From an uncultured Pelagibacteraceae bacterium (lineage in GTDB: Bacteria; Pseudomonadota; Alphaproteobacteria; Pelagibacterales; Pelagibacteraceae): a DNA stretch of 63,899 nucleotides. A program made the position numbers and the translations under genes. Positions 806 to 1,047 of this stretch are shown here, piece after piece. Each line of letters opens with the position of its first letter. Position 1 is the stretch's first letter. The stretch lies in contig CACPCL010000005.1 of NCBI GenBank assembly GCA_902632445.1, positions 1 through 63,899 on the forward strand, given 5' to 3'. The notes under the pieces are model-generated. The model searched no databases. It saw only the letters and a list, made by a program, of their open reading frames with translations, and was not told where the DNA came from.

Positions 806-890
806 GGGGCGATGGTGGAATTGGTAGACACGCCAGTCTTAGGAACTGGTCGAGCAATCGGTGAAGGTTCGAGTCCTTTTCGCCCTACCA
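806..890 (+). tRNA. tRNA-Leu (UAG anticodon), intact
   Basis: Complete class II tRNA. Acceptor stem 806-812 pairs with 880-886 (one G-U), the discriminator is A887, and CCA is encoded at 888-890. The anticodon stem CCAGT/ACTGG (833-837/845-849) encloses loop 838-844 with anticodon TAG at 840-842. A short variable arm (851-853 with 858-860) and a T-arm (863-867/875-879, loop TTCGAGT) are well formed. It lies between the integrase and the damaged tRNA-Leu of the same anticodon at 992-1047. It probably belongs to the integrated element rather than to the original host locus. Confidence 0.95.
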
Positions 891-895
891 TTGTT

Positions 896-942
896 GATAC
901 GATTGATACGATTAGTGATACGATTAACAATGTATTGATACG
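896..942. repeat. Direct repeats GATACGATT, candidate integrase arm-binding sites
   Basis: Three exact copies of GATACGATT start at 896, 905 and 917, and a fourth partial copy (GATACG) starts at 937. They fill most of the spacer between the intact tRNA-Leu and the tRNA remnant. Short direct repeats beside the crossover site are typical of arm-type sites of phage integrases; this role is inferred from position and spacing only. Confidence 0.5.
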
Positions 943-991
943 CAGTAGGAAGAAAGGAGTGTTGGTAGTTCAGGGTTCTAGACAATACGTT

Positions 992-1047
992 AGTCTTAGG
1001 AACCAGTGCCGCAAGGCTTAAGAGTTCGAGTCTCTTCTTGCCCACCA
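992..1047 (+). pseudogene. 3' half of a tRNA-Leu (UAG): probable attR junction
   Basis: From the anticodon loop onward this is a normal tRNA-Leu: loop 995-1001 with anticodon TAG, variable arm GCC-GCAA-GGC (1008-1017), T-arm 1020-1036, acceptor 3' strand CTTGCCC (1037-1043), discriminator A and CCA (1045-1047). The 5' half is missing. No GGGCAAG strand to pair with the acceptor is found in the preceding 60 bases, and the 5' anticodon strand (990-994) gives an A-C mismatch (992/1004) and a G-U pair. The break between foreign and tRNA sequence therefore falls at the anticodon stem-loop. It shares the 12 bases AGTCTTAGGAAC with the intact tRNA (835-846). Best read as the host tRNA gene split by integration. 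Confidence 0.75.

Follow-up and report, generated by a model that had tools for sequence, protein, structure and literature searches.

The window, by which we mean the whole stretch of 63,899 nucleotides analysed here, is contig C5 of the genome of an uncultured Pelagibacteraceae (SAR11) bacterium, denoted G000 (835 kb, 33 contigs, estimated 80% complete). Positions 1 to about 1003 are the right end of a T7-like pelagiphage prophage, which abuts the host gene for trigger factor as follows:

2 to 766, + strand: phage tyrosine integrase, C-terminal 251 aa (PF00589, E 3.9e-14; phrog_1, E 1.4e-30)
806 to 890, + strand: phage tRNA-Leu(UAG), complete, CCA encoded; proposed stand-in for the broken host gene (ARAGORN, Rfam)
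891 to 991, + strand: phage side of attR, with repeated GATACG motifs and the left arm of the attP inverted repeat (about 951 to 967)
992 to 1003, + strand: attR core AGTCTTAGGAAC, anticodon loop and flanks
993 to 1047, + strand: host tRNA-Leu(UAG) 3' half, without its 5' half (98% to host-gene positions 31 to 85)
1055 to 2410, + strand: tig (trigger factor), host flank marking the site (homologues 76-80% identical in the 30 best-matching relatives)

An earlier note, made from the sequence, had placed an integrase beside a complete tRNA-Leu(UAG) inside the element. The integrase is indeed of the tyrosine type, with the correction that its N-terminal part is absent from the window, since the contig starts inside the gene; it is 27-38% identical to the integrases of six pelagiphages or uncultured relatives. 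The tRNA gene follows int directly and is the single complete tRNA-Leu(UAG) that ARAGORN calls in the window, scoring 56.5 bits against an Rfam tRNA gathering score of 29. A further 101 bp separate it from the attR core, and the GATACG repeats in this interval, judged by eye, are possible integrase arm sites. The host tRNA 3' half ends 7 bp before the start of tig.

Division of the host gene between two junctions

The sequence at 993 to 1047 corresponds to the relatives' intact host tRNA-Leu(UAG) from position 31 onwards, so that only the 3' half is kept beside tig, as the note had proposed; the anticodon stem formed with the bases upstream of the core has the one A-C mismatch described there (confirmed by eye). 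Same-genus relatives carry an uninterrupted tRNA-Leu(UAG) directly before tig in 28 of the 29 loci read, the exception (L041) starting inside the gene. The missing 5' half has one exact place in the same genome, C12:11888 (search with up to 3 mismatches), where host sequence runs through GGGCAAGTGGCGGAATTGGTATACGCGCTGGTCTTAGAAAC and then gives way to other DNA with an RNA polymerase gene (321-aa part; phrog_414, E 2e-35). This is attL; a position on the window itself is ruled out, as the contig begins inside int. No tRNA is called by ARAGORN at the C12 junction. The host tRNA-Leu(UAG) is cut in the anticodon loop and neither junction rebuilds it, which bears out the proposed crossover in the anticodon stem-loop.

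Exact copies of the 12-mer AGTCTTAGGAAC lie at 835 and 992, and with up to one mismatch there are 3 matches in the window against 0.29 expected (1 of 100 shuffles reaches 3). The note had looked to attL for the host 5' half ending at this core; the half is there, but the core reads GGTCTTAGAAAC, because the main type of native gene in the genus has A beside the anticodon where the phage has G. This native type, found in most relatives of the genus (e.g. L036, 1407 to 1491), has A37 (CTTAGAA) and the window phage tRNA has G37, so integration changes the base beside the anticodon. Position 37 is A at attL and G at attR in G000, A at both ends in the lysogen G034, and A at attR in the lysogen G145. 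A mismatch lying within the stretch that was exchanged may account for these bases.

The attR stretch was also considered as a second functional tRNA, which is unlikely: in G000 it scores 18.7 bits, below the cut-off of 29, receives no ARAGORN call and folds with a z of −0.92. In another lysogen, G051, ARAGORN calls a weak tRNA-Leu(UAG)-like fold of 89 nt at attR.

The same attR is found in nine lysogens (G000, G034, G051, G145, G365, G426, L389, L390 and L392), all with the order integrase, tRNA-Leu(UAG), core, host 3' half, tig (the integrase of G426 by visual inspection). G000, G034, G051 and G365 were read at both junctions, and ARAGORN calls no tRNA at any of these four attL sites; attL of G145 and G426 was looked for and not found. 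A search for the 85-nt host gene across the genus covered 169 genomes, of which 158 have a match. Among the matches listed the gene is full length at 94% identity or more in at least 120 genomes, with two copies in G088 and G089, and is present only in split form in four: G000, G034 and G051 (two halves) and G145 (one half). It is partial at a contig start in G079; in G163 three matches are listed and one was resolved; the remaining genomes have weaker matches or none. In a second genus, g4, tig was matched in 121 of 139 genomes, and inspection of 110 of these loci brought to light the lysogens G365 and G426 as well. Scanning named genomes with the G051 integrase gave 7 loci, six of them 86-100% identical (including G034, G051 and G365), and added the lysogens L389, L390 and L392.

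Where one contig holds both ends (G034, G051, G365), the prophage measures 36.7-37.1 kb, and 4 of 6 G034 prophage proteins have PHROGs matches, which include a terminase, a tail fiber and an internal virion protein. Of the window prophage itself the two ends were read, and its middle was not located among the contigs. In favour of an artefact, with the split created by assembly at a contig end, it can be said that the window begins at such an end and that attL lies on another contig. We consider this scarcely credible, as three relatives hold both junctions on one contig and as L182, a viral-contig record in IMG/VR, shows the same junction into the tig of another host (tig identified by eye).

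In several phages (L145, L146, L154, L156, HTVC025P and others) the attP core sits in the loop of a long inverted repeat. For G000, attP was assembled from window positions of about 951 to 1003 followed by L072 beginning at about 1533. Of 22 non-redundant attPs, 10 form at least 9 of 12 pairs at one common register, compared with 0-2 of 22 at 16 other offsets; in the remaining 12 the repeat is weak or absent at that register, AP013543 being one base out. The stems of the 10 contain 95 Watson-Crick pairs, 18 G-U, 2 A-C and 5 other, and the G-U excess suggests that the stem may act as RNA of the int strand. For five selected attPs the folds have z from −4.0 to −6.0. No terminator was found at the attP hairpin in the window or L145 by a scan limited to loops of 3-8. 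Integration parts the two arms of the repeat.

The phage tRNA and its proposed role in lysogeny

The earlier note had further suggested that the element brings a replacement for an essential isoacceptor. In G034 (94% complete), 27 tRNAs pass the Rfam cut-off, with tRNA-Leu represented by CAA, GAG and the phage UAG; no UAA tRNA-Leu is seen, so this set is incomplete. In G000, ARAGORN at the Rfam tRNA loci gives only the phage UAG and one GAG. Thus no tRNA-Leu(UAG) besides the phage copy was found in either assembly, where an unseen UAG gene is possible because the genomes are 80% (G000) and 94% (G034) complete. Reading of CUA and CUG codons in the lysogens would depend on the phage copy, and we infer from codon rules that the disrupted host tRNA is essential. 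Relatives carrying both tRNA types but no integrase, which would have spoken against replacement, were not seen at the 110 g4 tig loci or among the matches listed for the 169 genomes, where no genome combined a full-length with a split copy. Together with an attL that restores nothing, the census supports the replacement reading, which is already in print (PMC6811365; PMC10865867). One limit is that prophage-free relatives with the phage-type tRNA alone exist (G306, G367; see below).

The pairing of integrase and tRNA extends well beyond these lysogens. A tRNA-Leu(UAG) follows int in HTVC025P, HTVC011P, HTVC041P, EXVC018P and AP013543, the corresponding stretch of EXVC020P reading N. In IMG/VR, a scan with an alignment of eight integrases gave 59 loci and one with the EXVC018P integrase gave 8; single-protein scans with the window, G145 or HTVC025P integrase found no relative. 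A tRNA-Leu(UAG) lies after int in 46 of the 59 loci, with a complete cloverleaf in all 46 and no other tRNA called there. A second core, scored by the 5-mer CTTAG, is present in 45 of the 46 (L196 ends too early), and every locus with a second core carries the tRNA (45/45). The longer GTCTTAG is found in 42 of the 45, L163, L164 and L175 differing. The second core lies 215-312 bp past the matched int end in 43 loci and 533 bp past it in L176 and L177. Among the 13 loci without the tRNA, four are cut at a contig end (L152, L169, L170, L200), four have distant integrases (L199, L201-L203) and five are close relatives (L148-L151 and L157, integrases 43-48% identical). In these five the next gene follows int directly, both tRNA and core being absent; they appear as phages with a related integrase that lost both, and represent few independent cases because L148-L151 are near-identical. 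Attachment core and tRNA are retained or lost jointly.

Integrases that are 88% identical go with tRNA-Leu(UAG) genes only 71% identical (L390 compared with G051 and G365), so it is function that is conserved. L390 (4374 to 4458) likewise differs greatly in its tRNA-Leu(UAG) gene from L388, L389 and L393, with integrases at least 88% identical and similar spacers; the tRNA cassette seems to have been exchanged independently among these phages.

Positions 1 to about 1003 very probably form the attR end of a T7-like pelagiphage that has integrated, is of the same kind as HTVC025P and HTVC011P and uses tRNA-dependent lysogeny. In the proposed mechanism, the host has one tRNA-Leu(UAG) gene, next to tig, whose anticodon stem-loop the integrase would recombine with a short attP core, and the two halves of that gene would end about 37 kb apart (size from relatives) with neither end rebuilt. 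The phage tRNA-Leu(UAG) would then take over the reading of CUA and CUG and keep the lysogen alive, for which it is presumably expressed, charged and required. Several features of tRNA-dependent lysogeny are present at the locus: a tyrosine integrase with attB inside a host tRNA gene (PF00589; anticodon-loop split), a shared core of about 12 bp with no tRNA at four attL sites (and the weak tRNA-like call at G051 attR), and the phage-borne tRNA. Also present is the combination that marks group III pelagiphages, i.e. integration in tRNA-Leu(TAG) beside trigger factor with a tRNA-Leu of the phage's own.

Phage tRNAs in general have been proposed to serve lytic translation or evasion of tRNA-cutting defences (discussed in PMC10865867), and here the position beside the attachment site would then be incidental. 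Such a role may exist in addition. As the explanation of the locus it is highly improbable, given that all 46 IMG/VR tRNAs after int have the anticodon of the broken gene, that tRNA and core are jointly absent in five relatives and that no other UAG gene was found in G034. A tRNA left behind passively when a phage excised imprecisely from an earlier host, put forward for LUZ100 and pelagiphages (PMC10134795, in part), or a mere marker of the integration site, as the EXVC018P tRNA has been taken (PMC8163748, in part), would account for phage tRNAs that do look host-derived. A passive relic should decay, whereas the cloverleaf is complete in 46/46 loci despite identities down to 61%, and the real core is downstream of the tRNA; we give a tRNA without any role almost no credence.

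The proposed mechanism has close precedents, compared here from parts of the papers cited. Pelagiphages of the HTVC011P/HTVC025P type integrate in tRNA-Leu(TAG) and are said to make up for its loss with a tRNA-Leu of their own (Chen et al., 2019; PMC6811365). These HTVC019Pvirus group III phages (uv-Fonsiphage-EPL, HTVC011P, HTVC025P) resemble the window prophage in the tRNA target and trigger factor flank, in an 11-bp core and in a tRNA-Leu of their own (PMC6811365); they would also share with it T7-like gene content and a split RNA polymerase gene, of which a 321-aa part lies beside attL. The window prophage differs in host genus and tRNA, and its integrase is 36% identical to that of HTVC025P and 30% to that of HTVC011P, kinship being compared through integrases alone. 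Relative to that paper, the present study compares junctions over nine lysogens and adds a tRNA census.

Mycobacteriophage mutants showed that such a tRNA is required, and the term tRNA-dependent lysogeny comes from this work (Guerrero-Bustamante and Hatfull, 2024; PMC10865867). Fionnbharth, LeBron and Gaia likewise have cores of 8-17 bp, a host tRNA that is not rebuilt and a phage tRNA of the same isotype, and Gaia also uses a tRNA-Leu (CAA). Those are Actinobacteria phages with proof from mutants, whereas the window, studied through its sequence, concerns a proteobacterial host. The authors ask how prevalent the strategy is outside Actinobacteria (PMC10865867), and nine SAR11 lysogens with junctions and tRNAs checked answer part of this. 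The marine T7-like cyanophages P-SSP7 and S-TIP37 share the tRNA-Leu target and an integrase with attP downstream, but in them attP and host tRNA agree over about 39-44 bp (PMC8776855), compared with about 12 bp and nothing rebuilt in the window phage.

Exchange of tRNA genes and their possible take-over

Against the native gene of the genus in which it is found, the window phage tRNA has 76.5% identity; against the gene of eight g4 genomes it has 92.9%, and there the last 42 nt are the same. The tRNA of phages L156 and L165 is 97.6% identical to a g4 host gene. Judged by these identities, the phage tRNA gene is apparently swapped between lineages. Phages may also have captured such genes from hosts outside the sample, which would account for some of the patterns here and below.

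The 110 g4 loci have one Leu tRNA each: 105 are of native types, two belong to lysogens, one (G318) is foreign, and two (G306 and G367) are of phage type. G306 and G367 are prophage-free with the tRNA at the native locus, and phage tRNAs match it at 95-96% identity, whereas no native host gene in the set exceeds 84%. Both contain GGTGGAA, a motif present in 22 of 31 distinct phage tRNAs; among 23 distinct host tRNAs no further one has it. For the 32-mer at the 5' end of this tRNA type IMG/VR has no exact match, though the lysogens G051 and G365 carry it. In the Tig tree, G306 falls in a clade (support 1.0) with G278, G346 and G428, all of which have the native gene; its upstream 50-60 bp are nearly as in these three, and the ORF further upstream differs. 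G367 is sister to the native-type G453 (0.992). Its tRNA-to-tig interval contains pieces like the native 5' half (17 nt exact and inverted, and 20/24 direct), neither reached in 2000 shuffles; they count as one because both belong to one inverted repeat. As a control, the new tRNA of G367 itself gives no such match there (652 of 2000 shuffles).

No second UAG gene was found in G306, G367 or G318. G318 was not upheld as a clear take-over: the closest phage and host tRNAs are 76.5% and 75.3% identical to its own, the stretch that may remain of the old tRNA measures 7 nt (equalled in 126 of 2000 shuffles; other strand 8 nt, 23 of 2000), and its anticodon-arm 20-mer has no exact match in IMG/VR. 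The tRNAs of G099 and G259 are 89-91% identical to the G145 phage tRNA. The tRNA tree agrees with the take-over picture, with supports of 0.84-0.93 for these groups over 85 positions.

We lean slightly towards the reading that a phage tRNA-Leu(UAG) can outlive its prophage, becoming the cell's permanent gene at the native locus while the native one decays, and that tRNA-dependent lysogeny may thereby drive repeated replacement of a near-invariant gene in SAR11. The comparisons suggest G306 and G367 as the best candidates, with G099 and G259 possible in either direction and G318 uncertain. If true, the foreign alleles that an essential tRNA gene shows in very abundant ocean bacteria would trace back to a phage strategy, and imprecise loss of such a prophage is possible only if its tRNA stays. 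A literature search of titles and abstract openings returned no phage tRNA kept after prophage loss in SAR11. Sinorhizobium prophages with extra tRNA genes are alike in that a foreign tRNA substituted the host's after prophage integration; that case involves Met/fMet tRNA and other elements, with no take-over after prophage loss in the portion of the text examined (PMC11476347).

Three g4 genomes outside the 110 set (G393, G291, G309) carry a g1-like type that looks native and lacks the phage signature; host-to-host exchange therefore also occurs, or the type is old. The window phage tRNA itself carries the 12-bp core in its anticodon stem-loop (835 to 846), so that another phage of this sort might in principle target it; the HTVC025P and EXVC018P tRNAs read GCCTTAGGAGC at this place. 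The host tRNA-Leu(UAG) beside tig in G259 (L238, 1788 to 1872) has an altered anticodon stem-loop, CAGATTTAGGATCTG, without the attachment core, and this host is possibly resistant to these phages.
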